DNA of 34,438 nt, from IMG/VR virus record IMGVR_UViG_3300025127_000123, positions 1-34,438 of that record; one strand, 5' to 3'. Made by a program: the position numbers and the translations under genes. Numbering within the stretch: the first letter of the stretch is position 1; each line of letters begins with the position of its first letter. Under the pieces are notes generated by a model. It did no database searches. It was not told where the DNA came from and saw only the letters and a list, made by a program, of their open reading frames with translations. This DNA comes from a virus. This document shows, piece after piece, positions 5,112-34,438 of this stretch.

Positions 5112-5115
5112 TAAC

Positions 5116-8377: not shown

Positions 8378-8600
8378 TGAATTAATCAAAGTAGCGCAAG
8401 AGCAGATTATTACAAATACTGAAGATGATGTTTCTGCTGATAGACTTAAAAATGCAGCGGCTACTAAAAAGCTAGCTATATTCGATGCTTTTGAAATACT
8501 CAACCGTATACAAGAAGAAGAAAATATACTAGAAGGTAAAGAGCCTGAAGAGAAAAAAGAAAGAGTGTTTAAAGGCTTTGCTGAAGGAAGATCTAAATAA
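8322..8600 (+). CDS. Candidate small terminase subunit
   Basis: 92 residues from the ATG at 8322 (MSIKETKKRI). An upstream in-frame ATG at 8271 would overlap the preceding gene by 107 nt and is less likely. It is all-helical and charged: RIILAGRKAVDELIKVAQEQ, then VSADRLKNAAATKKLAIFDA and FEILNRIQEEENI, ending GFAEGRSK. Its stop overlaps the large terminase start by one base (TAATG), so translation is coupled. Position immediately before terL, size and helical character suit a small terminase subunit, which recognises phage DNA for packaging. No helix-turn-helix is obvious. The assignment is inference from context. Confidence 0.65.
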   Translation: MSIKETKKRIILAGRKAVDELIKVAQEQIITNTEDDVSADRLKNAAATKKLAIFDAFEILNRIQEEENILEGKEPEEKKERVFKGFAEGRSK

Positions 8601-10812: not shown

Positions 10813-13230
10813 ATGAAGTCACCAGGTAATTATTTTCCAAGTCAAGCGGTAAGCGATATAGAAAAAGTTAGCTATGATTATGGTTTAGAAGTAGCTAAAG
10901 CTATAGAGCGAGAATGGTTTAGTGGCTCTAATGACGGCTATAATTATTATTCAAGAAGATTTACTTCTAACGGAGATACTTTTAGAAGTTTAAGATTATA
11001 CGCTAGAGGCGAGCAACCAATACAAAAATATAAAGATGAATTATCTGTTAATGGAGATTTATCTTATCTTAATTTAGACTGGAAGCCTGTACCTATTATA
11101 CCTAAGTTTGTAGATATAGTAGTAAATGGCATGAGCGACAAAGATTACTCTGTAAAAGCTTATTCGCAAGATCCTTATGGCGCTAGTAAAAGAACTAAGT
11201 ACATGGAGTCTATAATAGAAGACATGGAGCTAAAAGAGCTTAAAGACTTTTCTTTAAAACAACTTGGCGTTAACATGTACGAAAATGATCCTGAGACTTT
11301 ACCTGATAGTGTAGAAGAACTTGGTCTTCACATGCAGCTTTCTTACAAACAAGAAGCAGAACTAGCTCAAGAGCAAGCTTTAAATGTTTTGTTAAATGGT
11401 AATAAGTTTGACTTAACAAAGAAAAGATTTTTTTATGATTTAGCAGTAATAGGTATTGGTGCTGTAAAAACTAATTTTAATACGTCTGAAGGTTTAGTTG
11501 TTGACTATGTTGATCCAGCTAATTTAGTTTATTCTCACACTGACTCACCGTTTTTTGAAGATATATACTATGTAGGTGAGTTAAAAGAAATACCTATTAA
11601 TGAGCTAGCTAAACAATTTCCTTTTTTAAGTCCAGAAGATCTAAAAGATATTGCTGATAAAAACTCTAAGCGAAGACCTAATAATAGATATGAAAGAGTA
11701 GATCAAGACAGAAACATTATTCAAGTTTTATATTTTAACTATAAAACATACATGAATAACGTTTACAAAGTAAAAGAGACTTCTTCTGGCTTAGAAAAAG
11801 CTATAGAAAAAGACGACAGCTTTAATCCTCCTGAAAGTGAAAACTTTCAAAGAATTTCAAAACAAGTTGAAGTATTATATGAAGGAGCTTATGTTTTAGG
11901 AGCAAACAAGTTGCTAAAATGGGAGCTTTGTAAAAACATGATCAGACCTAAAAGTGATTATACAAAAGTTAAGATGAATTATAGTATAGTTGCTCCTCGT
12001 ATGTATGAAGGTAGAATTGAAAGTATAGTTAGTCGTATAACTGGTTTTGCTGACATGATACAGCTTACACACTTAAAAATACAGCAAGTTATGTCTAAAA
12101 TAATACCTGATGGTATTTACTTAGACGCTGATGGTTTAGCTGAAATAGACTTAGGTAATGGTACAAACTATAACCCACAAGAAGCTTTAAACATGTTTTT
12201 CCAAACAGGTAGTGTTATTGGCAGATCAATGACTCAAGACGGAGACATGAATCCTGGCAAAGTACCTATACAAGAGATAAGAAATAGTAATGGAGGTAAC
12301 AAAATGCAAGCTTTAATAGGTAATTACAATTATTATCTACAAATGATTAGAGATACTACCGGTTTAAATGAAGCTAGAGATGGAGCTATGCCTGATAAAA
12401 ACGCTTTAGTTGGATTACAAAAACTAGCGGCTCAAAACTCAAACACAGCTACAAGGCACATATTGCAGGCTGGTATGTTTTTAGTTGCTGATGTTTTAGA
12501 GTCTATGTCTCTTAGAATATCAGATATACTAGAGTTTTCTCCTACTAAAGATGCGTTTGTTCAAGCTATAGGTTCTCATAGTATAGCTAGCTTAGAAGAG
12601 CTTAGTCAAATGCACCTGTATGACTTTGGTATATTTTTAGAGTTAGCTCCAGATGAAGATCAAAAACAATTGTTAGAAAACAATATACAAATGTCTTTAC
12701 AACAGCAAAGTATAGATCTTGAAGACGCTATAGATATAAGACAAATTAAAAATATTAAGCTAGCAAATCAAGTTTTAAAGCTTAGAAGAAAAAAGAAAAT
12801 GCAAGCAGCTGCAGCAGCGCAAAAAGCTAACATGCAGCAGCAAGCGCAGACTAACGCTCAGCAGCAACAAATAGCGGCTCAACTAGAACAACAAAAGCAT
12901 GCAAGCAAAGCTCAGGCTGATATACAAGTAGAGCAAGCAAAAGCTGAGTTTAAACAAAAGTCAATGCAGCAAGAAGTAGAACTTAAAAAGCAATTGATGG
13001 CTTTAGAGTTTCAATATAATCAGCAAATTCAAAGTATGCAGTCTAACAATTTAAAAGGTAGAGAAAAAGAAAAAGAAGATCGTAAAGACGAAAGAACTAA
13101 AATACAAGCAAGTCAACAATCAGAACTTATAGATCAAAGAAAAACAGGTGGTTCACCTAAAAAGTTTGAATCTGCCGGTAATGATATACTTGGGAGTGGA
13201 TTTGGTATGGAGGCTTTTGGGCCTAAATAA
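10813..13230 (+). CDS. Portal protein
   Basis: 805 residues, directly after terL. The early part has the look of phage portals: an arginine-rich approach (YYSRRFTSNGDTFRSLRLYA), LDWKPVPIIPKFVDIVVNGM and DYSVKAYSQDP. Later parts include a long stem/wing segment with NYYLQMIRDTTGLNEARDG. The last ~150 residues are a Gln/Ala/Lys-rich coiled coil (AQTNAQQQQIAAQLEQQ), the barrel or crown extension seen in long portals, ending in FGMEAFGPK. Twelve copies would form the vertex through which DNA enters and leaves, docking TerL and then the ring proteins. Length is similar to portals of crAss-like phages. Confidence 0.9.
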   Translation: MKSPGNYFPSQAVSDIEKVSYDYGLEVAKAIEREWFSGSNDGYNYYSRRFTSNGDTFRSLRLYARGEQPIQKYKDELSVNGDLSYLNLDWKPVPIIPKFVDIVVNGMSDKDYSVKAYSQDPYGASKRTKYMESIIEDMELKELKDFSLKQLGVNMYENDPETLPDSVEELGLHMQLSYKQEAELAQEQALNVLLNGNKFDLTKKRFFYDLAVIGIGAVKTNFNTSEGLVVDYVDPANLVYSHTDSPFFEDIYYVGELKEIPINELAKQFPFLSPEDLKDIADKNSKRRPNNRYERVDQDRNIIQVLYFNYKTYMNNVYKVKETSSGLEKAIEKDDSFNPPESENFQRISKQVEVLYEGAYVLGANKLLKWELCKNMIRPKSDYTKVKMNYSIVAPRMYEGRIESIVSRITGFADMIQLTHLKIQQVMSKIIPDGIYLDADGLAEIDLGNGTNYNPQEALNMFFQTGSVIGRSMTQDGDMNPGKVPIQEIRNSNGGNKMQALIGNYNYYLQMIRDTTGLNEARDGAMPDKNALVGLQKLAAQNSNTATRHILQAGMFLVADVLESMSLRISDILEFSPTKDAFVQAIGSHSIASLEELSQMHLYDFGIFLELAPDEDQKQLLENNIQMSLQQQSIDLEDAIDIRQIKNIKLANQVLKLRRKKKMQAAAAAQKANMQQQAQTNAQQQQIAAQLEQQKHASKAQADIQVEQAKAEFKQKSMQQEVELKKQLMALEFQYNQQIQSMQSNNLKGREKEKEDRKDERTKIQASQQSELIDQRKTGGSPKKFESAGNDILGSGFGMEAFGPK

Positions 13231-14468: not shown

Positions 14469-15995
14469 ATGCCGAATATAACATTTGGTCCCAATTTAAA
14501 TAGTGTGCCTTCTCCACAACAGCAAGCCACTACTGGGAACTATATTGACTTTACAAGTACGGCTGCAAACAGTGCAAACTGGGGCCAGCAGTATTTACCA
14601 GACCTAATGGATAAAGAAGCAGAAGTGTTCGGACCACGAACTATTTCTGGTTTCTTATCTCAAGTAGGTGCTGAAGAAGCGATGACTTCTGATCAGGTTA
14701 TCTGGTCTGAACAAGGTCGTTTACACATATCTGTAAAAGGTAACCTTACTGCTGCTGGTACTATTGCTGGTAGTAACGGTGGTTTATTTACAGTAACATC
14801 TGATATTGATGGTAACATATTAGCTGACGGATTTGGTTCTGCTGCTACTGGTGACCAGCACGGTGTTAGAACTTTTGATACTGTTTTAGTATCTGGTAAT
14901 AACGCTACTGTTCAGTGTTTAGTAACTGAAGTTAACGGTGCTCAAATCGAGCTTGAGCCTTACGGAGCTGCGGACTGTGCTGCTATTGGTGATATTGCTG
15001 ATGGAACTTGTACTCTTTTAGTGTACGGATCTGAATTTGGTAAAGGTACTGGCTACAACGCTGTTGGCGCTGCTGCTACTACTGAAAGCAGAACTGCTAA
15101 TGAGCCTACATTCAAAACTTTTACTAACAAGCCTATCATTATCAAAGACTACTACGAAGTATCTGGATCAGATGCGTCTCGTATTGGTTGGATAGAAGTT
15201 GCTTCAGAAATGGGTGCTTCAGGTTACTTATGGTACTTAAAATCAGAGTCTGATACTCGTGCTCGTTTTAACGACTACTTAGAGATGGCTATGATTGAAG
15301 GTGTCACTGGAGACGATGCTTCAGTTGCTGTTGACGCAGATGCTTTCTTAGGTATGAACGGATTAAAGTTCGGTACTGAAGGTTTATTTGCTGCTATTGA
15401 AGACAGAGGTCACTTAACTGCTGGTATCTTAGGTGTTAACGCTAACGATGATTTAGCTGAGTTTGATGCTATTTTATCTGAGTTTGACAAGCAAGGTGCT
15501 ATTGAAGAAAACATGATTTTCTGTAACAGATCTAGCTCTTTAGCTATTGATGACATGCTAGCTTCAATGAATGGCTACTATGCTGGTGGTACTTCTTACG
15601 GAGTGTTTGATAACTCTGAAGATATGGCACTAAACTTAGGTTTCTCTGGTTTCCGTAGAGGATCTTACGACTTCTATAAGTCTGACTTCCGTTACTTAAA
15701 CGATAGAGCTACACGTGGTGGTATTAACGAAACTGCAGGTACTTCAGCTATTAGAGGATTATTTATTCCAGCTGGTACATCAACTGTATACGATCAGCAA
15801 TTAGGTAAAAACATTAAGAGACCTTTCTTACATGTTCGTTACCGTGCTTCTCAAACAGATGACCGAAGAATGAAAACTTGGGTTACTGGTTCAGTTGGAG
15901 CTGCTACTTCTGCTTTAGATGCTATGCAACTACACTTCTTATCTGAAAGATGTTTAGTAGTTCAAGGCGCTAACAACTTTATGTTGATGAAGTAA
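14469..15995 (+). CDS. Major capsid protein
   Basis: 508 residues, expected HK97-like fold from context. The start region (YLPDLMDKEAEVFGPRTISG) resembles an N-arm. A likely surface insertion, rich in Gly/Ala/Asp, spans about residues 80-205, and ALDAMQLHFLSERCLVVQGA lies near the end. Codon choice differs from its neighbours: at least nine Arg codons are CGT, and TTC, TAC and AAC are frequent where adjacent genes use AGA, TTT, TAT and AAT. This is typical of the most abundant virion protein. A strong terminator follows 9 nt after the stop, isolating it as the end of a transcript. The place after portal and scaffold makes the call secure. Confidence 0.92.
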   Translation: MPNITFGPNLNSVPSPQQQATTGNYIDFTSTAANSANWGQQYLPDLMDKEAEVFGPRTISGFLSQVGAEEAMTSDQVIWSEQGRLHISVKGNLTAAGTIAGSNGGLFTVTSDIDGNILADGFGSAATGDQHGVRTFDTVLVSGNNATVQCLVTEVNGAQIELEPYGAADCAAIGDIADGTCTLLVYGSEFGKGTGYNAVGAAATTESRTANEPTFKTFTNKPIIIKDYYEVSGSDASRIGWIEVASEMGASGYLWYLKSESDTRARFNDYLEMAMIEGVTGDDASVAVDADAFLGMNGLKFGTEGLFAAIEDRGHLTAGILGVNANDDLAEFDAILSEFDKQGAIEENMIFCNRSSSLAIDDMLASMNGYYAGGTSYGVFDNSEDMALNLGFSGFRRGSYDFYKSDFRYLNDRATRGGINETAGTSAIRGLFIPAGTSTVYDQQLGKNIKRPFLHVRYRASQTDDRRMKTWVTGSVGAATSALDAMQLHFLSERCLVVQGANNFMLMK

Positions 15996-19261: not shown

Positions 19262-22200
19262 ATGGCAGAGTTAAAAAGAACTTTTGTTAAAGGCGGTATG
19301 AATCTTGATCTTGACGAAAGATTAGTAGGCCAAGGCATGTATAGAGAAGCATTAAACATTAGAGTTAGTAGCTCTAGTGAAGGTAATGAAGGCTCTTTAG
19401 AAACTGTAAAAGCAAACGAAGCTTTAGAAGACGCTCGGTTTGAAGTAGGTGACGAAGAGCGAAGAGATCATGTTGATCATCAGTTACAAATTCTTCCTAG
19501 TTCTATAGTGAATTCTATTGTAGGTAATGTTGTTGACAAGTCTACAGACATAGTATATTTGCTAGTTGCTGACAACATAAAGTCTAATTCTGTTTTTTTA
19601 GAAGAAGACTATAATGAAGACTTAAAATATACTAAGGTATCTACCGACTCTATATACGAGCATCACCCTGAAACAAATACGTTTAATATAGTTTTTAACG
19701 ACGTTTATGAAATGTATATACCTGTTGTAGGTGTAGTGTCAAATCCTGGCGAACAAACTTATATTGAAATAAATGAAGCTCACTTAGAAAATCTTGATGT
19801 TAGAGAAGATATGCGTATTTTTCAGCATGAAGAGTTAACTGAAGTAGTAGCGGTTGATCCCGCGCCTGTAGACGCACCTATTAATCAAGGTGTAATAGAT
19901 GGCTTTTATGTAGATTATATTGATAGAGCAAACAGTAGAATATATGTAAAAGATTTATACAATAAGTTTAACGCTGCTACAGTTGGTCAAGTAGAAACAA
20001 TAAGATTAGCTTCTAAAAGAATATTAGGCTTTAGTAGCGTTAATGGATCTTTAGGCAGAGCAGAAAGATTTAATATTATAACAGGTTTAAATGTTTTTGA
20101 TGGCTTAATATTTTTTACAGACGGTGAAAGAGAGCCTAAAAAATTAAACATACAAAGATGTAAAGATGGCACTTTAGGTAATCCAAGTTCAGTATATCCT
20201 TCTTGGGTTAGTGATAGAAGATTTTTTCACACAAGACTATTAAAAAAGAATACTAGTAATGTTGTAGGTTTTCAAAACGTTTCAGAATACGACTTTTTTG
20301 GCGATATTAATAATGGTACCGGTGGTATGATAGAGCCACACTGTACAGTTATAAGACCAAATCCAGAAGAGCATTTAAAAATAGAAAGTAGTGTAGGTGC
20401 TATAACAAGTGAGACTACAGCTATCGGTCCTAGAGCCGGTGTTATTACACATCCTTTTCCAATACATCCAAGCAAAAGAGCTGGAGACACATTACAATTT
20501 TGTATAGCTTACGCTAACGAGTTAGGTTTCTTTGATTTTGACGGAGCTTTACTAACAGATGCTTCTGTTCCACCTGAAGGAGGACCATTAGTAGATCAAT
20601 ATTATAGTGATAATTTTCTTGCAGTGCCAGGTATTGTTGGCGGTGGAGAAAGCTGGGCTTTTACATTAGCTATTCCAGATATTTTAGCTGCGCAAGCACA
20701 TAGACTAGCTACTTATCCGTACAACGAAGGTATTCAAGGATTACTAGGAACTCAAACAGACGGATTAGCAACTAATCCATTTTTTGAAGCAAATGGTTAT
20801 CAAATAGATTCTATGATTTCTTTGTACGAAGCAGATGGTAATGGTGAAGGACAACCTATGACTGATAGGCCTTTGTTTAGAGATCATTTAAACATTGGTG
20901 TTTTTAATGCTGGCTTTCAGTTAATATACTACAGTGATACTCTAGGACTTATCAATGATCCAGGCGTAATGCCTAGCGCTGTTCAAAACTACGACGTAGG
21001 CGATCAATACGAAGGTAACAACTATCAAGGTCCAGGTGGATTTATTGATTATGCTGGTGTTTCTGGAAATAGAAATACCGGTACAGGCGTAACAGATCAA
21101 AGTATGCTAATGCAGTATTGGGATGTTGAAAATCCTAAAATGGACTTTCAAGAAGCTTTTAATTTAGCTGCTTATAGTGATGATGGTTTAGGAGCTAGTC
21201 CACACCCTATAGTTAGGGCTTATCATAGAGGTGGGCTTTTGTCTAGAACTAATCTTATAGGCTCTAACTCAGACATAAACACTGTTAGCGAGTATTGGGG
21301 TATTGGCGATGACTCTATGCAAAACTTAATTCATAATGGAGAAATAAAAGCTAATGAAAATGGTTTGATTAGACCTACTACGCCAGGTAGATTTGTTGTT
21401 CAGCCGCATGGATTTCAAGTAGGTGATATAGTTATTTTAAAAGGTTTAGGAAATACTTATAGAAATGACGCAGTAGGAACTTACAAAGATCAAGATTTTA
21501 CTGGTAATAGCTTTGATGTATTAAAAGATACAATTGAAAATGCTAGCTTTGAAGACGGAGCACAAGGAGGTGGTAGTTTAAGTGATATGTATACTGAAGC
21601 AACTGCTGGCGCGCAAGATAACGCTCCTTGGTTTGTTAGAACTAGAAAGCACGACGGCTACATGGACAATGTTAAAGCTAAAATCGTAAAAATAGAGCAT
21701 GTTAATATTAGAGAAAACGATGCTGTAATAAATGGCGAAATAGTTCCTCAATTTATAGACAACTATGGCAACGCACATAATTTGTTGACAGATAGATTTA
21801 TGTTTCTTAGCGACAAAATGGTTGGTGATTTATTCTCTGATGGCTCAGATCCAGACGGTGAAGTAATAGAAGGTGTACAGATAACACCTAGTTTTTTCTC
21901 TACACCTTCATACGCTAGTCAGTACGTGTTTACAATAGAAATATTAGAAAATAATAGAAAAAAAGATCAAGATCCTACACTAAGAGCTGACATGAGCGCA
22001 AGACATCTTAATCCAGATGCTATTTTTGCTAATGCTGATAATCCACCTCTTTGTGGTTTTGGAGATCCTAGGCTTAACGCCGCTATGCTTCCTCCTTACT
22101 ATGAGTTTAATAAATCGCCGTACTTTCAGTTTGACGAAGGTTGGGGTTGGCCAGGCGGCGGTGTTTCTGCTCCAGTTGTAAACGGTGATACCGAGCAGTA

Positions 22201-25200
22201 TTTTGGACCTCCACTACCTCAAGTGTGGGCTGTAACAGCTGCTAGTGATTTTGAAGAAGGCGGTACTTTATCAGATGAAAGAGCTTTAAGAGAAACTATG
22301 CTTAGGTTTTCATATAGATACCAGTATGAAGATAATGAATACTCTGGTTTTGCACCTTTTACTACGGTAGTTTGGAGAACGTTAAATCAAAAAATTGATT
22401 GGCCAAATTATTACATATCTTTAATTAATGAAATAACAGATTTAAGATTATTAGACTGGTCGCCAAAGAATATACCGCAAGATGTAAAAGCTGTTGAGCT
22501 ATTAGTTAAAAGTGAAGAAGCTTCAAATATATATGCTTTAAAAAAATATGACTATAGACAGTCTGAGTATACATCTAATGGTAACGGAACTTATAGAGGT
22601 GTGCATGAATTTAATTCTAATACTTTAGGTTTAACAATAGAGCCTAATCAAATATTAAGGCCATTTGATTCAGTTCCAAGAGCAGCTAAAGCTCAAGAAA
22701 TTAGTGCTAATAGAGTTATATATGGTAATTATTTAAAAGATTATAACTTAGAAGAAGTAATACTTGGAGGTTTAGGTACATACAAAGAAGATATAAGAGT
22801 TAATTTAGAAGTTGGTTTACATAGTTATATAAATCAAACGCAAGGCGAAATACTAGGTCCTGATGGTAACGCCATAGCTATTACATTAGATACAGACGAA
22901 AACGCAATTGAAACTTTTGAAGATGCTTATTCAAATGTAAATCCTAATTTTGGTTTACCTTTAGAATCTGTTAAATCATATAGATCATATCAAGTAGGAA
23001 TAGTATATAGAGATGAATTTGGTAGAGAAACACCTGTTTTAACTAATAAAAAAGCTGTTATTAAAGTAGGCCCTGATCAATCAAAAAAGAGCAATAGGCT
23101 TAAAGTTATTGTAAAAAATCCGCATCCTACGTGGGCTAAGTCTTATAAGTTTTTTGTAAAAGACACTTCATTAGATTATCATGTTTTACCGTTAGAGCAA
23201 ATAAAACATTACGTTGAAGGCAATAATAGTGATGACGATGCTGATATTGACGCAGTAAACGCCGAGTTAACAGAGCAGTCTACAAGCTGCTTAATATTTA
23301 GCTCTGATCATAGAAACAAAATTCAAGAAGGAGACGTAATAATACAAAAAAGACCTCATAAAATAACTACACAGCCTGATCCAAGCATGACTACTATAAC
23401 TCATATTTATGAGCCAGACAATCCTGGGCTAGAATATGAAGTTCAAACTATTAAAAACGAAGCGCCAGAAAATTTAGTTGATGCATTTGAAGGTAACGAA
23501 GAACAGTTAGAAGGTAAGTTTTTTGTTTTTGTAAAAACAGACAGACCTTTAGTAATAAACAATAATGAAGGCGCTTTACCTGGTCCCAACACAGCTAAAA
23601 CTCAAGCTGTATTTGAAACTAGACCAAAACCAAACTACGATGTAGACTTATACTACGAAGCTTCTCAAGCATATCCTGTAGTTCTCGATGATGAAACTGA
23701 TGAGCAATTTATAAAGCCTGGCCGTATGGTTTTACCTTTTAACTACACGCCAATACTTGGTGTCGGTGAAATAGGTGGTGCTTTAACAACAGCTAACGGA
23801 TCTGGAGGTAATAGTTATTTTCCTACAATGTTTGGTGAAGACTCTGACGGCGATGGTTTAATAAGTTATTTTGACTCTAATTCTTTTGATCCTATAACAG
23901 TTGTACAGGTAAACACGCTTGTTGGTAGACACTCTGAAAATGATGAATTATATACAGAGATAAAGCTTAGCGAGCCTGTTACACTTAATATACCTGTTGG
24001 TGGCGAATTATGTTTAAGAATACAAAATCATTTAGGAGAGAGAATGAACGTGGGCGAGTACATTCATGTTGTAGTTGCTGAAGACGTTGTTGATAGCGAC
24101 ACTGTTCTTGTAAAAAGACATACGCACGCTTCTAACTTTGGCTTAACTAACGACATTGCTTTGCCTATATCTTTACCTTGGTATAATTGTTTTTCTTTTG
24201 GTAATGGTATTGAAATATCTACCGCTAGAAACGCATTTAATGGCGCTAGACTTCAAAAAGGCGTAAAAGCTTCTAGTATATATGAAGATTATGCTGAAGT
24301 AAAAGAGTCAACTGGATTAATATTTTCTGGTGTATATAATTCTTATAGTAGCTTTAATGAAACAAATCAATTTATAGAAGCTTTAGGTATAACAAAAAGA
24401 TTTAATCCTGATCACGGATCTATACAAAAGTTGTTTTCAAGAGCTAATGATTTAATTGTTTTATGTGAAGATAAAATTTTAAAAGTTCTTTCTCAAAAAG
24501 ACGCAATATTTAAAGCTGACGGTAATCCTGACTTACTAGCTACTAATAGAGTCTTAGGTCAATCTGTTGCTTTTGACGGTGAGTATGGTATATCAAATAA
24601 CCCTGAGTCTTTCGCACACTATGGCTTTAGATCTTATTTTACTGATGCTAAGAGAGGTGTAGTATTAAGACTTTCTAAAGATGGTTTAACAAAAATATCA
24701 GACGTTGGTATGGACTCATTCTTTAAAACAAGATTAGCTAACGTAAGACAAGAGCAAATAACTGGTGTTACTGGAGTAGAGCAAAATGTAGTAGGCTCTT
24801 ATGATATTGATAAAGAAGAATACTTAGTAAGCAGTACTAAGTTTACAGTATTTTTTGATGACGCTAGTAACTTTACAGATGGACTTACTGTTGCTTGGTC
24901 AGAAGATCAAAAAACATGGACTTCTTTTAGAAGCTACGTACCAACGCATCAAGGCTATAGTGTTTTAAATAAATACTACGCAGGCACTGGAAACACTTTA
25001 TATCAGTTTGATACGCTTAATTCTCCATACATGGCGTACGATGGTTATTATCCTGCTTATCAAGGTGCTGGTATGAATCCTATGCATAGATCAAAAGTTG
25101 CTTTAGTTTATAACGAGCAACCAGGAATAATAAAAGATTTTACTTATACAAACTACGAAGGGTCTCAAGCTAAAATAATTGGAAACGCAAGTGATGAAAT

Positions 25201-25888
25201 TTTATCTACTAATTTACCTCGAAAAGGTTGGTGGATAGAAGCGGTAAGTACAGACTTAGAACAAGGTATGTCTATTAACTTTAAAAAGAAAGAGAACAAA
25301 TGGCATAACAATATAATGCACAAAACAAAACCTAGTAGAATAAATTTACCTTCTATAAATGAAGAAGAATATCAGCAACGTATCATCGCTATAGGTAGGC
25401 CTACAATAATTACTACTACAGAGAATTATGAAAATGGTGCGGCAGATTATAGATTTATCTTTAATTTTGAGCCTGGAGATGTTAATATGTCTTTAATTCA
25501 GCAAGATCAGTTTATACAAATATTAAAATACAATCCTGAAACAGGTTTACTTTATAATAGCATTGAAAGCTTAGGTAATTTTGTTCACTTTGGAGAAGTA
25601 GAAAGCTGGACTGGTAATTCAATTACTACTAAGCTAATGGAAAATGATTATTTTAATGCGCGTAATGGTTATCCTTTTACTTATCCGTTTGGTTATGAAA
25701 TAACACAAGCAGAGCAAGACAGCGTTTTAGCTGGTTATTCTGAAATGGTAGTTGTATTAAAACAAGCGGCTTTAGAACATTCAAGTGTAAAAGGTTATTT
25801 TGCAAAAGCAACATGGATAAATGACGATGATCAACAAAAATCAGAGCTATTTGCTGCAACGTTAAATGCTGTTGAAAGCAGTAAATAG
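19262..25888 (+). CDS. Giant tail protein (muzzle / stabilization type)
   Basis: 2208 residues. The opening, MAELKRTFVKGGMNLDLDER followed by LVGQGMYREALNIRVSSSSE, matches the start I know from 'stabilization protein' or muzzle proteins of crAss-like and related marine phages, where it forms the distal tail. The body is beta-rich with many Asn/Asp/Gly turns. D1527 begins DSDGDGLISYFD, a complete EF-hand-type calcium loop. The end region has helices (SVLAGYSEMVVVLKQAALEH). No catalytic hydrolase motif was noticed, so it appears structural. It is longer than most relatives I can recall, and the excess is probably in surface domains in the middle. It is the likely heavy client for the encoded chaperonin, although it far exceeds what a GroEL cage encloses. 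Confidence 0.85.
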   Translation: MAELKRTFVKGGMNLDLDERLVGQGMYREALNIRVSSSSEGNEGSLETVKANEALEDARFEVGDEERRDHVDHQLQILPSSIVNSIVGNVVDKSTDIVYLLVADNIKSNSVFLEEDYNEDLKYTKVSTDSIYEHHPETNTFNIVFNDVYEMYIPVVGVVSNPGEQTYIEINEAHLENLDVREDMRIFQHEELTEVVAVDPAPVDAPINQGVIDGFYVDYIDRANSRIYVKDLYNKFNAATVGQVETIRLASKRILGFSSVNGSLGRAERFNIITGLNVFDGLIFFTDGEREPKKLNIQRCKDGTLGNPSSVYPSWVSDRRFFHTRLLKKNTSNVVGFQNVSEYDFFGDINNGTGGMIEPHCTVIRPNPEEHLKIESSVGAITSETTAIGPRAGVITHPFPIHPSKRAGDTLQFCIAYANELGFFDFDGALLTDASVPPEGGPLVDQYYSDNFLAVPGIVGGGESWAFTLAIPDILAAQAHRLATYPYNEGIQGLLGTQTDGLATNPFFEANGYQIDSMISLYEADGNGEGQPMTDRPLFRDHLNIGVFNAGFQLIYYSDTLGLINDPGVMPSAVQNYDVGDQYEGNNYQGPGGFIDYAGVSGNRNTGTGVTDQSMLMQYWDVENPKMDFQEAFNLAAYSDDGLGASPHPIVRAYHRGGLLSRTNLIGSNSDINTVSEYWGIGDDSMQNLIHNGEIKANENGLIRPTTPGRFVVQPHGFQVGDIVILKGLGNTYRNDAVGTYKDQDFTGNSFDVLKDTIENASFEDGAQGGGSLSDMYTEATAGAQDNAPWFVRTRKHDGYMDNVKAKIVKIEHVNIRENDAVINGEIVPQFIDNYGNAHNLLTDRFMFLSDKMVGDLFSDGSDPDGEVIEGVQITPSFFSTPSYASQYVFTIEILENNRKKDQDPTLRADMSARHLNPDAIFANADNPPLCGFGDPRLNAAMLPPYYEFNKSPYFQFDEGWGWPGGGVSAPVVNGDTEQYFGPPLPQVWAVTAASDFEEGGTLSDERALRETMLRFSYRYQYEDNEYSGFAPFTTVVWRTLNQKIDWPNYYISLINEITDLRLLDWSPKNIPQDVKAVELLVKSEEASNIYALKKYDYRQSEYTSNGNGTYRGVHEFNSNTLGLTIEPNQILRPFDSVPRAAKAQEISANRVIYGNYLKDYNLEEVILGGLGTYKEDIRVNLEVGLHSYINQTQGEILGPDGNAIAITLDTDENAIETFEDAYSNVNPNFGLPLESVKSYRSYQVGIVYRDEFGRETPVLTNKKAVIKVGPDQSKKSNRLKVIVKNPHPTWAKSYKFFVKDTSLDYHVLPLEQIKHYVEGNNSDDDADIDAVNAELTEQSTSCLIFSSDHRNKIQEGDVIIQKRPHKITTQPDPSMTTITHIYEPDNPGLEYEVQTIKNEAPENLVDAFEGNEEQLEGKFFVFVKTDRPLVINNNEGALPGPNTAKTQAVFETRPKPNYDVDLYYEASQAYPVVLDDETDEQFIKPGRMVLPFNYTPILGVGEIGGALTTANGSGGNSYFPTMFGEDSDGDGLISYFDSNSFDPITVVQVNTLVGRHSENDELYTEIKLSEPVTLNIPVGGELCLRIQNHLGERMNVGEYIHVVVAEDVVDSDTVLVKRHTHASNFGLTNDIALPISLPWYNCFSFGNGIEISTARNAFNGARLQKGVKASSIYEDYAEVKESTGLIFSGVYNSYSSFNETNQFIEALGITKRFNPDHGSIQKLFSRANDLIVLCEDKILKVLSQKDAIFKADGNPDLLATNRVLGQSVAFDGEYGISNNPESFAHYGFRSYFTDAKRGVVLRLSKDGLTKISDVGMDSFFKTRLANVRQEQITGVTGVEQNVVGSYDIDKEEYLVSSTKFTVFFDDASNFTDGLTVAWSEDQKTWTSFRSYVPTHQGYSVLNKYYAGTGNTLYQFDTLNSPYMAYDGYYPAYQGAGMNPMHRSKVALVYNEQPGIIKDFTYTNYEGSQAKIIGNASDEILSTNLPRKGWWIEAVSTDLEQGMSINFKKKENKWHNNIMHKTKPSRINLPSINEEEYQQRIIAIGRPTIITTTENYENGAADYRFIFNFEPGDVNMSLIQQDQFIQILKYNPETGLLYNSIESLGNFVHFGEVESWTGNSITTKLMENDYFNARNGYPFTYPFGYEITQAEQDSVLAGYSEMVVVLKQAALEHSSVKGYFAKATWINDDDQQKSELFAATLNAVESSK

Positions 25889-25917: not shown

Positions 25918-26781
25918 ATGAACTACGGAGAAACAGAAAGTCCTTTAAAAAATGTAACAACATCTACGCTTAGCGGCGCTGGACAAGGTGCTATAACTGG
26001 AGCTTCAATAGGTGGTGCTCCAGGCGCTATAATAGGTGGCGTTATAGGTGGTGTATCAGGTTATCTTAGTGGCAAAGCTAACGAAGAGTTAGAAGAGCAA
26101 CAAAGAATAGCTCAAGAAGAGTTTAATAATAAGTTAGACGCGTTTGTTAATTCTGAAGTTAATAATCCTTTTGCAAACATATCTAATACTTTTGCAGGAC
26201 TTACAAATCCTCTTGAAGAAATATCTACAGAAAATAAATTTGAAGACTTAACTGTAAATTTAAAGTCTGCAGATTATCAAAGGCAAATGGCTGAAGAGTC
26301 TCAAGCAGCTATATTACAAACTGCTAGAGCTGGCGCTGGTGGTGCTGGTGGTATTGCTAGCATTTCTGCTTTATTAGCAAAACAAAACGCACAAGTTAGA
26401 CAGCAAATATCAGCTGACATTGGAGCACAAGAAGCGCAAAATCAAAGATTAATGGCTCAAGGTGCTGAAAGTGCTAGACAAGTTGAAATACAACAAGCAC
26501 AAGCTGAAATGAATAGACAGCAAGCTGTAGCTCAAGGTGCTATGCAAGCACAGTTAGCGCAAGCTGAAGGTCAGTTTAAAGTTGACCAAGTACAAAGAGA
26601 TAAAGAAATGCTAGCTTTAGGCTATGACGCACAAACTTTTGCTGGTGACACTGCCGCGCTACAAGCTCAAATGGAAGCTAACACAGAAAGTGTAAATAAT
26701 TTATTTGGTACTGCTACAGACTTGTATTCAGCTTATCAAAGCGGCGGTGGAACAGGTAATATGTTATCAGGTACTACATAA
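25918..26781 (+). CDS. Glycine-zipper internal virion protein
   Basis: 287 residues. Residues about 20-48 form a glycine zipper (GAGQGAITGASIGG, GAIIGGVIGGVSGYLSG), a small-residue motif that packs helices in membranes and is typical of phage ejection proteins. The rest is helical and rich in Gln, Ala and Glu (QVEIQQAQAEMNRQQAVAQG and QAQLAQAEG), likely coiled coil. A Gly/Ala stretch AGAGGAGGIASISALL lies at about 137-152. It follows the tail gene and precedes two further large internal proteins. The likely role is to enter or line the host envelope during DNA ejection, like T7 gp14. This is inference from motif and place. Confidence 0.78.
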   Translation: MNYGETESPLKNVTTSTLSGAGQGAITGASIGGAPGAIIGGVIGGVSGYLSGKANEELEEQQRIAQEEFNNKLDAFVNSEVNNPFANISNTFAGLTNPLEEISTENKFEDLTVNLKSADYQRQMAEESQAAILQTARAGAGGAGGIASISALLAKQNAQVRQQISADIGAQEAQNQRLMAQGAESARQVEIQQAQAEMNRQQAVAQGAMQAQLAQAEGQFKVDQVQRDKEMLALGYDAQTFAGDTAALQAQMEANTESVNNLFGTATDLYSAYQSGGGTGNMLSGTT

Positions 26782-26793
26782 AATTAAATAAAC

Positions 26794-28206
26794 ATGTCAT
26801 TAAATTTTTTACAAAAATCACTAAGCAAACTAGCTGATACACAAGCTAGCTATAAAGCGTTTAAAGGAACTAGCTTTAACCGTTATATGGATAGTATAAT
26901 TAGCACTACAGGTGAAGTTGCAAAAGTTAATTTAGAAATTACAAACGCTGCTTACAATGCTTTTTTAAAGTCTACTGGTCAACCTATAACTCAAGAAATA
27001 AAAGATAGAAAAAAATATGCTAAAGATTTAACTGACAAAAATGTAAAGTTAGATCCAAACTTAGGATTTGAAGCTAACAGTAGTTTAATAAATCAAATTG
27101 AAATAGATAATCAAGAGGCTAAGCAATTAATTAGAATACAAAAAAATCCTTTTAAAAATAAACAAACTAAATTAGACGCTACTGCAAGGTTACAACAAAT
27201 TAAAAATCAATTTGTTAAATATAAGCAAGACAAAGAAGTAATAACAGAACTGCATAAAAACGCTATTGACGCTCAAAAAAATCCAGATCCTGATCCTACA
27301 TTGCTTGAACAGACTGTACATACAGATTTATTAGACGGTACGTTTAAAGATAAAATTGTTTGGAATCCTGAAATAGGTGGTAATAAAACGCTAGGTGGTT
27401 TTTATAAAGCGCCAAACGGAGACTTAATAAGATTAGAAGATCTTAAAAGTGTTAACAAGGTAGATTTAGAATTTGAAGGTAGTTTAGCTGGTTTTGCGGC
27501 TGAAGCTGGCCAATTAGCTAGTACTGGCAAGTGGAACTCTGACTCAAGAAGAGAGCTTGTTAGTAAAATGGTAGAGCTCATTAACTCTAATCCTAAAGCT
27601 GTAAGACCTGTTATTTTTAATGGATTTACAGCTGATAGAACTACTGGTGAAGCAGAAAGTTTTGCTACTTTGTTTTTAGATAAAATGATAGCAGATCAAG
27701 GCCTAACTGTAGGAGATGAGCAAAAAGATGTAATGAGAGATCAATTAAAAACTGAAGACTTAACAGAAAGCTTTATTAGTTATTATGCTAAATTAATAGA
27801 TGAAACAGCTAGTAGTGCTATGGTTGCAAGTTCAATAAACAAAAATACTGGCAGCAAATTTACCGCTAGTGAATTAAATCAATATAATGCCTTTGTAGAA
27901 AGTTATAATTTACCAGATGGTAGTGAAATAAATATACCTTTTAGCACAACTACAGCTAAAAGATTATCAAATGGTAAGTATCAAGTAGTAGAAAAAGGTA
28001 ACGATATAACTTTGCAAAATCAAAATAAATACATAATTTCTGAAGACGAGCTTTTAACTATGAGTAGACTTCCTCAAAGTATGCGTAATAAGTTAGGAAA
28101 ACGTAAAGCAAATGATAAACCTAAGCCAAACACAGAAACAGCTACGCCGACAAATATGTCGCCAGAAGATTTTAAAGAGTTTTTTCAAACAAAATTAAGA
28201 GGTTAA
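26794..28206 (+). CDS. Putative internal/cargo protein
   Basis: 470 residues, mostly helical and charged (YKAFKGTSFNRYMDSIISTT, later NQFVKYKQDKEVITELHKNA) with a Pro/Asp-rich joint (NPDPDPTLL) and a beta segment (NKTLGGFYKAPNGDLIRLED). The end reads RLPQSMRNKLGKRKAND followed by a Thr/Pro-rich tail. No catalytic motif or membrane helix recognised. It lies between the glycine-zipper protein and the giant cargo-like gene, with tight spacing (13 nt on each side). Position suggests a protein packaged in the head or tail lumen and ejected, but no family supports it. Confidence 0.72.
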   Translation: MSLNFLQKSLSKLADTQASYKAFKGTSFNRYMDSIISTTGEVAKVNLEITNAAYNAFLKSTGQPITQEIKDRKKYAKDLTDKNVKLDPNLGFEANSSLINQIEIDNQEAKQLIRIQKNPFKNKQTKLDATARLQQIKNQFVKYKQDKEVITELHKNAIDAQKNPDPDPTLLEQTVHTDLLDGTFKDKIVWNPEIGGNKTLGGFYKAPNGDLIRLEDLKSVNKVDLEFEGSLAGFAAEAGQLASTGKWNSDSRRELVSKMVELINSNPKAVRPVIFNGFTADRTTGEAESFATLFLDKMIADQGLTVGDEQKDVMRDQLKTEDLTESFISYYAKLIDETASSAMVASSINKNTGSKFTASELNQYNAFVESYNLPDGSEINIPFSTTTAKRLSNGKYQVVEKGNDITLQNQNKYIISEDELLTMSRLPQSMRNKLGKRKANDKPKPNTETATPTNMSPEDFKEFFQTKLRG

Positions 28207-28219
28207 TAAATATAATTTT

Positions 28220-31200
28220 ATGGATAAAGAGTTAGAATTAGAAATTCAAAAGCTAATTGATGCTGGTAGATCTAAGCAAGACATAGAGACTTACATCACA
28301 AACTATGTTGAAGCAAAAAAAGAAAAAGCTCCCCAGAAAGTGGATGCCCCTGCGGAGCCAGAAGATATGGCATCCAAGCCGGTAGATTTTTTATCGGAAT
28401 CCAAAAGCTATAAGCCTTTTAATCCTCTAGATGTATCTGGTGATTTATCATTAGATGTTGATCCTACAGGCGGTGTTGGTACCGCTATTGAAGTGGCAAA
28501 TAGCGTTGTTACAGACGAAGAGTTTGATCAAATACAAATAAACAAAAAACAAAAAGAAAACGAAACTTTAGCTCAAGACAAAGCTGACGCTGCAGCTGAT
28601 GGCCCGTTGTTGTTTTTAGATTTTAGCCAAGAGCTTGGCGGTGTTATTCCTGGTGCTGAAATGACAAAAAAACCTGAAGTTAGACCAACAATTGACGGGC
28701 GAACAAGATCTGCTGAAGGTTTACCGTTTGTAAGTGACGAGCTTGACGGTTATTGGCAGTACACAGACAGACGTTTTGGATCACAGAGAGAATACATAAA
28801 CTCTCTTTGGCAGTCTAAGTATCTAAACGATTTAGAAGCTGTTAATAATGATAAAAACAAGCTTAACGAAAAAGTAAAAGAGATTAGTATAAACTACTTA
28901 GACTTAGACGTTGATAAAGATATAGCTGAGTTAAATCAAAAAATAAAAACTTTAGCTGATGGTCCAGTTAAAGATGAATTAATAAAACAAAGAGATGCTA
29001 GGTTTAAAGCCAAAAAATATGTGCCGTTGTTTAACGAAGACGGTAGCACTACAGGTTTTATACAAGAACAATATGAAGAGCAAGCTCAAAACGATGCAGA
29101 TGAGTTTCAGTTGGATGAGTTAGAACAGTCAAGATTAAACTTGTATTATGAACTAGTAGAGTTAGGTAGTTTAGGCGCTCAATTTGATAATAGAAGACCT
29201 GTTAAAGACGAAAGAATATTACCTTATGTTGGGAAATCAATTTTAGGTATTAAAGGTGCTCAAAGTGCAGTTGAAAAAGTAGGTGGTGCTGTAAGAGAAT
29301 TATTTGGTGCAGAAGATACTTATTATGACGATATAAAACTTCTTGAATTTATATATGACAACGACAAGCTTCCTGCTAATCTAACTACACTTCCAGGAGA
29401 ATCTCAAATAGCTCAAAGATTTAATGAAACTTTAAGTAAGTTTAAAATAGCAAATAGAGCTATTGAAATAAAAGCAAATTTAGCTCCGTTAGAAGAAGAA
29501 AGTATTTGGCTTGAAGGATTAGATCGTTTTACTAAAAACATAACTGATAAAGGAACTAATTTTACAGAAAGAAACGACGAAGCTGTAGATTTATTTACTA
29601 ATTGGTACGCTGAAGCAACTGGTACTATTTTTGACAAAGATGAAGTTTTTAGACCAGGAACATCATCAAGTAGAGCTATACAAGAGATAGCTAAAAACGG
29701 AGCTGCAGACTTATCAGAGTTAGTACTTTCTATAGCTGCTACTAAAAAATTACCGGTAGGTGTAACTACAAAGTATGCGAAAGCTGGTAGAGGCATGATT
29801 GAACAAACAGGTCAAGTTGTTACTTTTGGTCAAAAAATGCGTAAGACTAAAAACGCTATACAAAAATGGGCGCTTAGAGGCAATAAAAGTAAAGCGTATG
29901 AAACAGGCGTTAGGTATAGCTTAGGTGCTGCAGACGAAATAGTAAAGCTAGGTGTAGCTGATATAGTTGGTGGTGGTTTATTTAATTCAGAAGGTTTTGT
30001 TTTTAACGATCAAACAGGTGATGTTAATTTAGTTTTTCCAGCATCTTTAGGTTTTGGTAATGAGGCTTCAAAAGACTTTATTAAAAGAATGATGAGAATC
30101 AAAATACCTGTATTAACACCTATACTTGCTAATGCTAATAGATCTAAAGCTTTAAGCACTTTTATGGGCGCAAACGTGTCGGCAGGCGTTGGTACATCAA
30201 CATTAGTTTTTGCAGAGCGAGTAGATGAATATTACAGAGAACTAATAAATGATAGAAAGTTTTTTGAAGCTAAAAAATTACAAGAAACTGATCCTGTGCA
30301 CCACTTTGTAGGGCATTATATAAACATGCTTATGATTGGTGGTCCTAGAACTTTAGGTAAACTTGGTAGATCAATGCAAAGAGATATTTTACGATTGTCT
30401 AACAAATTACCTGGTACTGATAAAGCAGGCGCAACGCTAGGTTTAAAACATGGGGCTGAGCCAAAAGAAATTGATGCTGCTGTTCAAAAAAAAATAAACG
30501 AAATAAAATCTAATAAAAATTTAGATAAGTTTCAAAAAGAAGAGCAAATAAGCGAAGTTAGAAAAGCTGGTAACAAACTGCAATACTTACACGAGTATAA
30601 TGCAGCTATTACAACAGCTAAGTCGCATGGTAACTACATGAAGTTTTTATCTGATCAGTCTGTGCTTCTTAATAAAATAAAACAAGGCGTTGAGCTTACG
30701 GCTAAAGAAAAAGAAAGACTAGCTAATTTAAAAGAATACGAGTTTGATTATATAAAAGCAGAGCTTGGTGTTAGTAAAAATTCTGTTGAAGGACGATTGT
30801 TTGACCTTAAAAAGAAAAACTTTGAAAACATAGTAGAGTCTTTGAATGCTGAAAATATACGAGGACCACAAAAAGAAAAAATTATTGATCTTATGGATCA
30901 ATACTTAAAAGTAAAAGACAGAAAAACAAACTTAGAAGGCACTATTAATAAAAGACCTGAGCTAGAAGGTGTTGTAAGAGAAAAAATAAATAAAATAAAC
31001 GAACAGCTAAAAGAAATAACAGATAAAATTGGTGTAGAAACTAAGTCTTTTGATGCCGTATTTGAGCGAATGATTGAAGGCGAAGTAAACATGGTTAAAG
31101 CAGCTGCTAGCGAAATGGGTGTTAAAGGGTTTAACGTTTTAAACGGAAGCGGTTTTGCTAGGTTTTTAATGTTAACTGGTAGATATACTCCTGAAGCTGC

Positions 31201-34200
31201 TATAGCTGAAGCTATGAAAAGCTCTGGTGTTTATGATCCTGTTAAAGATCAGATATACCTTAACATGAGTAGAATAAAAGAAACTCGAAGTTTAGGTGAT
31301 CCGTTGCATGAGCTAGGCCACGCTATACTTAGAAAATCTTTAAAGGGGCCTGATGGTAAAATAAGTAGCGAAGGTATAAAAATAATAGATCAATTTAGAA
31401 ACTCTTTAACAGCTCAAGAACAACAGATTATTAACGAAAGAGTTAAAAGAAACTATAATCCTGACGGAACTAGAAATAAAAACGAATACTACGAAGAGTA
31501 TTTAATGGCTTGGTCTGATGCTGTTAAAAACAGAGAAATTACATATAATGCAACTACTGGTCAAAAAATATCTGATGTATTATACCCTGTTCTTTCAAAA
31601 GCTGGATTTGGAACCAACTTTGCTAAAACAGATATAGGCGGTGAAAATATATTTTTATTCATGCAAACGCTACAGCGTGCTAGCTTAAAAAAAGGTTTAC
31701 GTAAAGATATTATTGAATTTGGTAAACAAGCTAGAGAAGGTGATGTTAAAGGTGAAATGCTTCAGTCTAAAAATATTACTAAAGAACAAGCAGAAAAAGT
31801 TGCAGAAGATTTAAACAAAATAAATCAAATAAAAAAAGCTGTTGAAACCTTTTCAAGTAAAAAAGGTTTAAACGCCCTTGAAGTATTAGAAAGTGATGCA
31901 ATTTACCAAAGAGCTTCTCAAAGAATAAAAGATAATATTAGTGAAACAACAGGTAGATTAACAACAACTTTAACTAAAAGGTTGTTTGATCCTATACCTG
32001 AAGACTTTACTAAACCTTTAGGCGATACTAAAGACTTAGCTAGACAAAACTTTCAAGAGTCTTTAAAGTCTGAGCTTGAGCAAATGGTTATAAAAGAATA
32101 CAAAGGCAAGCAAGAGTTAGAAAAGTTTATAGTAAATAGAGGCTTTTTAAGAGCTCAAAGCTTAGCTAAAAGACTAGGTGTAATACAAGAAGTTGCTGAA
32201 GGCACTAGTAAAGAAAAGCAAATAGCGGATAAGCCTGGCATGGTACAGCAAGGCAACAGATTCTTGTTAGACATGGCTGAAACTGCTGGTCCTAGAGTGA
32301 GAGAAGCTACTCAAAAAGTATATAAAGAAATAGCAGAAAGCGTTGAAGCGCAAAAGCAAGCTGGTAAACCAGAAGCTGAAATAGTTCCAGGTAGCTATAA
32401 GCAAGTTAATCCTAAATACTTATCAGAACTTATAGAGTCTTTTGTGGTTGGTAAAAGAGCCGAAGTTAAAGGCCAAGAAGTTATTGGCGATAAAGCAATG
32501 TCTGACCGTATTGTAAAACAGATACAAACAAAGCAACAGCTAAACAACAATGAAATAGCTATATTAAAAAAGTCTATAGGTGATAATTGGTTAATGTTTG
32601 ATGCTGCTTTGCCTCAAGGTTTTACTATAACTGGCGAAGCTACAATGGGTAGAATAGGTGGTTTAAAACCTTATTACAACGAGATGACTCAAAGAGCTAC
32701 TCAAGAAACATTTGGCATAGCCGCAGCTCCTTCAGGTAGAAAACCTTTTGTTAGAATAAAAGGCATGAACAAAGAAACTTTCATGCAGCCATTAGAAGCT
32801 ATTACTAAAGCTTCAGAAAGTGGACCATTAAAGAGCATGCTAGTTGAATATGTTAGAGCTTTTGAAAATCAGGCTATGAGATCTAGACTAGATCCATTAG
32901 GTGAAGCGTTTAAGCATTTAGCAGATGGTAGATCACCGTATTTATTTAGTGTTAATGAAAAGACAGGTATGTCTATAGCTGATTTAATGCAGCAAGGCGT
33001 AGCAATAGGCTCTATAAGATTACAAACTAAAAACTTAATAGAAGCTTTTGGTAAACCTAATTACGAAAAAATAGCTAGAGAAAAACATCCAGCTGTAGTT
33101 GATTTAGTTGAAACGTTAATGCTTAACAGAAACGAAACGCTAACTGTTGGCGGATCATATCAAAAGTCTATTAAAACTGACGCTTTTACACCTGGCGAAA
33201 TAAAAAATCAATTAACAGAAGGTGGTATATATAGAGGTAAGAAGCTAAACGATCCGGCAACTCGTCAAAAGTATGTTAATGCAGCTTTTAATATAGGTAT
33301 GAAAATGCATCCGGCTATAGAATCTTCTTGGATAGAAGCTTCGTTAGCTTTAAAAGATGGTTATAAAGGCACTGTTAAAGTTACAGATTATGCTACTCAA
33401 AGAGCTGCGCTTAGAAATAGATCTTTTACTCCAGCTGAGATTAAAAAAATGGAAGCTGATATGAAGAAGCTAGGTGTAGACGTTGAGAATCTAGTTAACG
33501 CTACGCCTATGGAGATGAAAGGTTTTGTTAAAGAAACGCTAGAGTCTATAGGTAGAGAAACATCACTTCAAGCTAAAGAGCAAATATTAGCAAACGCTAA
33601 AAATAGACTTGAAAATATAAACAAGGCTAATCATGATTTACACAAATACATGAACGACTTGTATCAAAAAGAATATGCTAATAAAAATATAGATAATACT
33701 TTTGTATTATTAAATGGTGCTTTACAAACTAATATTACGGCTGGTAAAAGAGCTATGAGTACTTTTGAGTATGTATATTTAAGAGAAGGTAAACAAATAG
33801 GTTTAAATAAGCCGGCTAAAACATTAAAAAACTACGAAGCTAAATTACAAGAATACTACAAATCTTGGGAGCAATGTGTTGAGTATAAAGAAAGATATAA
33901 TGTAAGGTTAAAAGAAACTAAAAATAAAGCCCAAGCTAGAGATTTAGCAATATCTGATCTTCAATGGAAGAACGAGCACTTAGGCGCTTCTGCTACAACA
34001 AACGGCAAAATATCTTCTTATATATATTCTGGTGGCAAGTCTATAACGCTAGATAACATAAACAATGGCCACAGAACGCTTTGGGCTCCTAAATATATAG
34101 CTGACAAAGTATTAGATGCTAAAATAAAAGTTGGTGACAAAATGGTTGACAACAAAGTTAGTTTAGAAGGTGAGCTTCGTATATTAAAGTTTGGTCAAGG

Positions 34201-34438
34201 TAAATTGTTTGGGCCAGACAGAAAAGTTGTACATTTTACAGGTGAGTCGGCTAGTACATATATAGCTAATAAAAATAGAGTTGCAGAAATAATTAACGAA
34301 ACATTGCAAGCAGAGCAGGCAAGTGTTACAAAAGTAGCTGCACCAAGTAAAATTTTAAGTTTTTCTAAAGACTTTAGGAAAACAAAAGAAAACATAAAGA
34401 TATATGATAAAGCTATGGAGCTTGGTCGTATGCCTAAT
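28220..34438 (+). CDS. Giant polyvalent/cargo-type protein with HELGH protease motif (partial)
   Basis: An open frame of 2073 codons from the ATG at 28220 to the window edge with no stop, so the true protein is longer. It begins MDKELELEIQKLIDAGRSKQ, then a Lys/Pro linker and long helical, charged regions. H1030-E1031-L-G-H1034 (DPLHELGHAILRKSL) is an HExxH zinc-protease motif; NEYYEEYLMAW, 58 residues on (E1092/E1093), offers a gluzincin third ligand. The ~70 residues before it (RYTPEAAIAEAMKSSGVYDP, then DQIYLNMSRI) look like the edge strand of that domain. Late residues, about 1900-2040, hold NEHLGASATTNGKISSYIYS and RTLWAPKYIADKVL, unrecognised. Such multi-domain giants downstream of phage tail genes are usually virion cargo injected into the cell. 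No RNA-polymerase DxDxD signature is seen in the visible part. Confidence 0.88.
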   Translation, partial: MDKELELEIQKLIDAGRSKQDIETYITNYVEAKKEKAPQKVDAPAEPEDMASKPVDFLSESKSYKPFNPLDVSGDLSLDVDPTGGVGTAIEVANSVVTDEEFDQIQINKKQKENETLAQDKADAAADGPLLFLDFSQELGGVIPGAEMTKKPEVRPTIDGRTRSAEGLPFVSDELDGYWQYTDRRFGSQREYINSLWQSKYLNDLEAVNNDKNKLNEKVKEISINYLDLDVDKDIAELNQKIKTLADGPVKDELIKQRDARFKAKKYVPLFNEDGSTTGFIQEQYEEQAQNDADEFQLDELEQSRLNLYYELVELGSLGAQFDNRRPVKDERILPYVGKSILGIKGAQSAVEKVGGAVRELFGAEDTYYDDIKLLEFIYDNDKLPANLTTLPGESQIAQRFNETLSKFKIANRAIEIKANLAPLEEESIWLEGLDRFTKNITDKGTNFTERNDEAVDLFTNWYAEATGTIFDKDEVFRPGTSSSRAIQEIAKNGAADLSELVLSIAATKKLPVGVTTKYAKAGRGMIEQTGQVVTFGQKMRKTKNAIQKWALRGNKSKAYETGVRYSLGAADEIVKLGVADIVGGGLFNSEGFVFNDQTGDVNLVFPASLGFGNEASKDFIKRMMRIKIPVLTPILANANRSKALSTFMGANVSAGVGTSTLVFAERVDEYYRELINDRKFFEAKKLQETDPVHHFVGHYINMLMIGGPRTLGKLGRSMQRDILRLSNKLPGTDKAGATLGLKHGAEPKEIDAAVQKKINEIKSNKNLDKFQKEEQISEVRKAGNKLQYLHEYNAAITTAKSHGNYMKFLSDQSVLLNKIKQGVELTAKEKERLANLKEYEFDYIKAELGVSKNSVEGRLFDLKKKNFENIVESLNAENIRGPQKEKIIDLMDQYLKVKDRKTNLEGTINKRPELEGVVREKINKINEQLKEITDKIGVETKSFDAVFERMIEGEVNMVKAAASEMGVKGFNVLNGSGFARFLMLTGRYTPEAAIAEAMKSSGVYDPVKDQIYLNMSRIKETRSLGDPLHELGHAILRKSLKGPDGKISSEGIKIIDQFRNSLTAQEQQIINERVKRNYNPDGTRNKNEYYEEYLMAWSDAVKNREITYNATTGQKISDVLYPVLSKAGFGTNFAKTDIGGENIFLFMQTLQRASLKKGLRKDIIEFGKQAREGDVKGEMLQSKNITKEQAEKVAEDLNKINQIKKAVETFSSKKGLNALEVLESDAIYQRASQRIKDNISETTGRLTTTLTKRLFDPIPEDFTKPLGDTKDLARQNFQESLKSELEQMVIKEYKGKQELEKFIVNRGFLRAQSLAKRLGVIQEVAEGTSKEKQIADKPGMVQQGNRFLLDMAETAGPRVREATQKVYKEIAESVEAQKQAGKPEAEIVPGSYKQVNPKYLSELIESFVVGKRAEVKGQEVIGDKAMSDRIVKQIQTKQQLNNNEIAILKKSIGDNWLMFDAALPQGFTITGEATMGRIGGLKPYYNEMTQRATQETFGIAAAPSGRKPFVRIKGMNKETFMQPLEAITKASESGPLKSMLVEYVRAFENQAMRSRLDPLGEAFKHLADGRSPYLFSVNEKTGMSIADLMQQGVAIGSIRLQTKNLIEAFGKPNYEKIAREKHPAVVDLVETLMLNRNETLTVGGSYQKSIKTDAFTPGEIKNQLTEGGIYRGKKLNDPATRQKYVNAAFNIGMKMHPAIESSWIEASLALKDGYKGTVKVTDYATQRAALRNRSFTPAEIKKMEADMKKLGVDVENLVNATPMEMKGFVKETLESIGRETSLQAKEQILANAKNRLENINKANHDLHKYMNDLYQKEYANKNIDNTFVLLNGALQTNITAGKRAMSTFEYVYLREGKQIGLNKPAKTLKNYEAKLQEYYKSWEQCVEYKERYNVRLKETKNKAQARDLAISDLQWKNEHLGASATTNGKISSYIYSGGKSITLDNINNGHRTLWAPKYIADKVLDAKIKVGDKMVDNKVSLEGELRILKFGQGKLFGPDRKVVHFTGESASTYIANKNRVAEIINETLQAEQASVTKVAAPSKILSFSKDFRKTKENIKIYDKAMELGRMPN

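Follow-up and report, generated by a model that had tools for sequence, protein, structure and literature searches.

The phage polyvalent proteins described by Iyer et al. in 2017 are very large, have their genes among those for portal, terminase and virion proteins, and join unrelated enzymatic domains in one chain; about 36% of them carry a zincin, with a core comprising an HExxH motif and a ligand Glu on the following helix (PMC5512222). Injection of these proteins has been proposed, as has processing by the zincin of its own polypeptide, and host targets are allowed for some of these zincins. Virion proteins reported with such a domain include (i) DdrB from P1, cleaved before packaging, and (ii) the virion RNA polymerase (vRNAP) from N4, packaged uncut, in which the region containing the zincin is required for encapsidation (PMC5512222). 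In crassviruses, capsid and tail store large cargo proteins, whose extrusion is believed to take place in a partly unfolded state (PMC10172136), and an ejection protein from T7 carries a cell-wall enzyme (PMC8954989). By abundance, the phi38:1 group ranks near the top of ocean phages (PMC7198788), and the largest protein of the virion operon in its members has no assigned family or function.

The window analysed here, a stretch of 34,438 nucleotides, derives from a marine podovirus of Bacteroidota that is uncultured and whose relatives include Cellulophaga phage phi38:1 and the Flavobacterium elemo phages; the IMG/VR record is a virus fragment, and its end coincides with that of the window. 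The virion operon comprises:

8600..10810, + strand: terminase large subunit (phrog_6681; nearest terminases from phages)
10813..13230, + strand: portal protein (phrog_6547)
14469..15995, + strand: virion structural protein in the major-capsid position (phrog_13704; 38% identical to elemoF gp26)
19262..25888, + strand: muzzle-like tail protein, 2208 aa (phrog_14478, E 1.6e-96; Pfam crAss_MUZ above cut-off)
25918..26781, + strand: glycine-zipper protein, 287 aa, candidate channel or ejection protein (sub-threshold Pfam Gly-zipper; position)
26794..28206, + strand: 470-aa protein between the glycine-zipper protein and the giant, in the position of phi38:1 gp100 and elemoF gp19 (no family match)
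28220..34438, + strand: giant virion-operon ORF (ATG start, 2073 codons, no stop up to the window end)

The giant is the last gene of this terminase-portal-capsid-muzzle operon, with the muzzle-like protein, whose length in relatives L009-L088 lies between about 1400 and 3330 aa, three genes before it. The nearest terminases belong to an uncultured podovirus (64%) and to Flavobacterium, Cellulophaga and Tenacibaculum phages. Syntenic operons likewise end in a giant of 1691 aa in phi38:1, 3694 aa in elemoF and 3859 aa in the Manatee Spring phage, those of phi38:1 and elemoF being annotated as structural (labels as deposited); the literature searched held no virion mass-spectrometry data for these three giants. 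The cargo-like nature proposed in the first-pass annotation gains support, by analogy, from its place as the closing gene of the virion operon and from the 'structural protein' label of homologous or positionally equivalent giants in cultured phages.

The reading frame of at least 2073 codons stands as first described, and the downstream sequence that the first-pass annotation had called for is available through an IMG/VR relative, L001, whose complete protein of 3000 aa is 82% identical to the window giant; from this close relative, the full-length window giant is predicted to reach about 3000 residues. A further IMG/VR relative, L002, spans residues 1-1640. The window giant has no family match in Pfam or PHROG, its part within the window matches nothing in phage records searched with DNA and with the single protein sequence, and neither the full giant nor the module profile gave a meaningful match in PDB sequence searches. 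No transmembrane segments were detected by scan, repeated 5-mers considered as candidate cleavage sites are not informative (10 vs 5 expected; shuffle maximum 12), and promoters around the giant region are fewer than in shuffles. Within the giant, the following features are distinguished:

28220..28324, + strand: N-terminal exchangeable module, about 35 aa, differing between the window and L001
31127..31528, + strand: predicted zincin core, residues 970-1103, with three strands, the HExxH helix and the ligand-Glu helix (AlphaFold; alignments A3 and A5)
31307..31321, + strand: HELGH, the two predicted zinc-ligand His and catalytic Glu1031 (invariant in 71/71 modules)
31496..31498, + strand: Glu1093, predicted third zinc ligand (invariant in 71/71 modules; also in alignments A3 and A5)

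The first 35-60 residues of the giants fall into a few swappable types, the window resembling L094, with L001, L089 and L112 forming another type and L097, L104 and the Manatee Spring phage a repeat type.

The HELGH reported at residues 1030-1034 is present there in the translated ORF, in which 0.011 HExxH motifs are expected by chance. In a first sample of 80 loci retrieved by a muzzle profile, 28 of the 31 downstream giants cut off at the locus end carry HExxH (29 motifs vs 0.27 expected), and in a further case, L061, the motif appeared once the full gene (L099) was retrieved. Because giants in this sample were partly chosen by the motif, the clean test is an independent second sample of 71 complete giants (1808-3900 aa) picked by their C-terminal core alone: HExxH occurs in 70 of them, exactly once in 69, with about 1.15 motifs expected in all. 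The sole giant lacking it, L112, has its gene split into two ORFs, the upstream one containing HEAIH. In 268 further ORFs of related loci, all at least 500 aa long, HExxH is absent (0 vs 3.1 expected), a figure that is descriptive since this set is partly defined by lack of the motif where the giant lies. That a helical protein bears HELGH by chance, a reading favoured by the lack of a strong family match for the giant and by nothing else, was rejected, its probability being close to nil in view of the excess of HExxH over expectation, the low dN/dS described below and the conservation of all four ligand and catalytic residues. Judged by this conservation, the zincin domain in the giant is real.

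Alignments of 19, 71 and 70 modules agree that only His1030, Glu1031, His1034 and Glu1093 are invariant, the modules being otherwise about 15% identical overall; in a set of 35 modules including isolates, each of the two Glu columns shows one exception, the catalytic Glu being kept in 34. The first-pass annotation had placed the third ligand at a Glu 58 residues on, a spacing that fits Glu1089 (58 after Glu1031) or Glu1092 (58 after His1034). Both of these were dropped: Glu1093, 62 residues after Glu1031 and 59 after His1034, is the one invariant among distant relatives and therefore the predicted third ligand. The spacing between catalytic and ligand Glu ranges from 50 to 111 residues among the modules, with a median of 62, the value in the window. 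In addition, dN/dS over residues 1025-1110, a stretch picked in advance as the ligand region, is 0.015 vs L001 and 0 vs L002, and 100-aa bins of the protein range from 0.02 to 0.55; the ligand helices are thus under the strongest purifying selection among the stretches measured in the giant.

The AlphaFold model of residues 890-1259 has a mean pLDDT of 70, rising to about 80-90 in the module core, and displays strands at 970-974, 1003-1006 and 1011-1015 together with two helices, 1027-1041 holding HELGH and 1092-1103 holding Glu1093 (138-152 and 203-214 in model numbering). The modelled module matches the minimal zincin core of Iyer et al. 2017, with the published MPTase layout of a three-stranded sheet, an N-terminal helix and two C-terminal helices bearing HExxH and Glu. 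The ligand set, an HExxH helix with a Glu on a later helix, fits a gluzincin-type zincin with a predicted zinc site, so that the gluzincin-like module originally noticed is borne out by the four invariant residues and the modelled core; a HELGH helix without its third ligand was looked for and did not occur. Foldseek found no match to the model in the PDB at E <= 0.001, its matches being mainly helical, a probable effect of the long helix that dominates the model. VIA-align retrieved the catalytic domain of anthrax lethal factor, a solved zincin, over 158 residues spanning the module (rmsd 4.2) with a Z of 6.7, in the range of common arrangements, and a fold shared with a toxin catalytic domain tells nothing about the function of the giant's zincin. 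The best BFVD match is an uncharacterised viral protein (E 3.8e-12), weaker ones including IrrE-like and polyvalent proteins; both searches support the fold weakly. No Pfam peptidase family matches the window module, and PHROG metallo-protease/peptidase families reach only E 0.014 and 0.039. Searched with Pfam and PHROG profiles for a place among the 12 published MPTase clades, the window module gave no match beyond these, and the Asp that Iyer et al. describe for one phage clade, three residues downstream of HExxH, is not present in the window.

Past the window end, L001 and other relatives show that about 870 aa at the end of the giants form a conserved core, just before which the window stops. 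This core (L001, 16142-18874; relatives L105-L184) is not represented by a family in Pfam or PHROG and opens with the HAD motifs DFDxT, TAR and DD; in an alignment of 12 members their key residues do not vary. The motif set is found by strict pattern in 61/71 giants, parts of it being visible in nearly all others, and 9 of the 12 members match DUF2608, a HAD-type family, below threshold. The description of an otherwise helical giant was therefore incomplete, as relatives carry intact HAD phosphatase motifs and the C-terminal core beyond the window. The core is encoded in at least 596 IMG/VR stretches, and in cultured phages it leaves only a trace, in one; most MAG contigs encoding it fall in Bacteroidota bins and some in others. 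The zincin lies N-terminal to the core motif in 58/58 giants measured. In L001, the extreme C-terminus (18800-18874) forms a Cys/His tail like a small zinc-binding motif, absent from aligned relatives.

The giant may accordingly be compared with several described proteins. It shares with the polyvalent proteins of Iyer et al. (PMC5512222) the large size, the genomic setting, the zincin core and, in relatives, two unrelated enzymatic domains per chain, zincin and HAD, the HAD part of the window giant lying beyond the window end; it differs in that the zincin is present as a single copy in essentially every sampled giant, and in its C-terminal HAD/core, which has no family name. N4 vRNAP and P1 DdrB are likewise reported to bear a zincin, but no polymerase or ParB-like domain is recognised in the giant, which is compared with them by description. 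The cargo proteins gp45-gp50 from phiCrAss001 are also large and associated with a muzzle-bearing tail (PMC10172136), as is suggested for the giant by its crAss_MUZ neighbour; the giant matches none of the crassvirus cargo families (gp45, gp46, gp47-50) in Pfam or PHROGs. Among cultured phages, elemoF gp18 ('structural protein', 3694 aa) occupies the same place at the operon end and its zincin is matched by the A5 profile (E 5e-12), although the C-terminal core profile does not find it and it carries DUF3293. Gundel_1 gp74 ('structural protein', 2482 aa), from a Tenacibaculum phage, contains HEFGH at 1337 and a C-terminal stretch (2054-2304) related to L001 2540-2775 (E 9e-8), but its gene lies upstream of the terminase and it includes a sub-threshold GNAT-like stretch. 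Finally, phi38:1 gp101 (1691 aa) is devoid of HExxH, so that distant relatives manage without the zincin.

The zincin is kept in every sampled complete relative and is therefore probably essential, its likeliest task being to cut the giant into working parts. The reading we prefer, which has about an even chance of being correct, is that the giant is a polyvalent protein packaged in the virion and cut by its own zincin. The giant would be packaged as cargo with the DNA, as we infer from operon position and annotation, and ejected through the tail and muzzle; the gluzincin-type zincin in its middle (His1030, Glu1031, His1034, Glu1093) would be active, and its main job would be limited proteolysis in cis, during assembly or after ejection, so that the N-terminal half could act as one protein and the C-terminal HAD-phosphatase/core part as another. 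What favours cleavage in cis is that the module occurs once, is near-universal and highly constrained, and lies N-terminal to a separate enzymatic module. Release of the giant's own domains by the protease, one of two roles first suggested for it, thereby finds support by analogy, having already been proposed by Iyer et al. 2017 (PMC5512222); published precedent points both ways, P1 DdrB being cut before packaging and N4 vRNAP remaining uncut. The phi38:1 giant without HExxH and the lack of a strong peptidase-family match also count against this reading.

The other role first suggested, that the zincin is an ejected effector cutting host proteins of defence, transcription or the envelope after delivery, appears unlikely. 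Host targets have a place in the scheme of Iyer et al. (PMC5512222), and divergence to about 15% identity outside the ligands is what a changing target would allow, but the module has no known host target, and arms-race domains usually come and go, whereas this one is near-universal, single-copy and under strong purifying selection, more like housekeeping; attack on host proteins thus finds no positive support. We consider it quite improbable that the substrate lies among other virion proteins or in the envelope, the zincin trimming co-packaged cargo or capsid proteins or opening a periplasmic path. Although no prohead protease was recognised among the window proteins scanned, a phage with a P22-like portal need not have a maturation protease, and no processed virion proteins are known here; the cell-wall enzyme carried by the T7 ejection protein (PMC8954989) is the precedent for an envelope role. 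A non-catalytic zincin fold, retained purely for packaging or structure, would recall N4 vRNAP, which requires its zincin region for encapsidation and stays uncut (PMC5512222), and relative L023 has HDGIH; against this very unlikely reading stands the catalytic Glu, conserved in 71/71 and 34/35 modules. The HDGIH of L023 (19224-25100) aligns to the zincin in place of HExxH and possibly marks an altered or inactive form.

Self-cleavage of the giant as a polyvalent protein draws on an idea and a kind of domain already known; what is new is a giant family with a near-universal zincin, the corrected third ligand and the connection with a large group of uncultured marine phages. A protease in every sampled complete member makes the older proposal that zincins process polyvalent proteins testable, and cultured relatives with laboratory hosts (elemo phages, Gundel_1) carry HExxH-bearing giants. 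A tentative and rather doubtful extension is that an obligatory protease in the ejected giant times infection in these abundant flavobacterial podoviruses, parting a swappable N-terminal ejection part from a conserved HAD-phosphatase/core that then acts in the host cytoplasm; if so, the invariant zincin would be no accessory but an enzyme essential to infection.

Upstream of the virion operon, the window encodes GroEL (1747-3315) and a GroES-like protein (7787-8377), as do the elemo and Manatee Spring relatives, and a 124-aa ORF (5083-5457) with a second HExxH (HETQH), possibly a small zinc peptidase.
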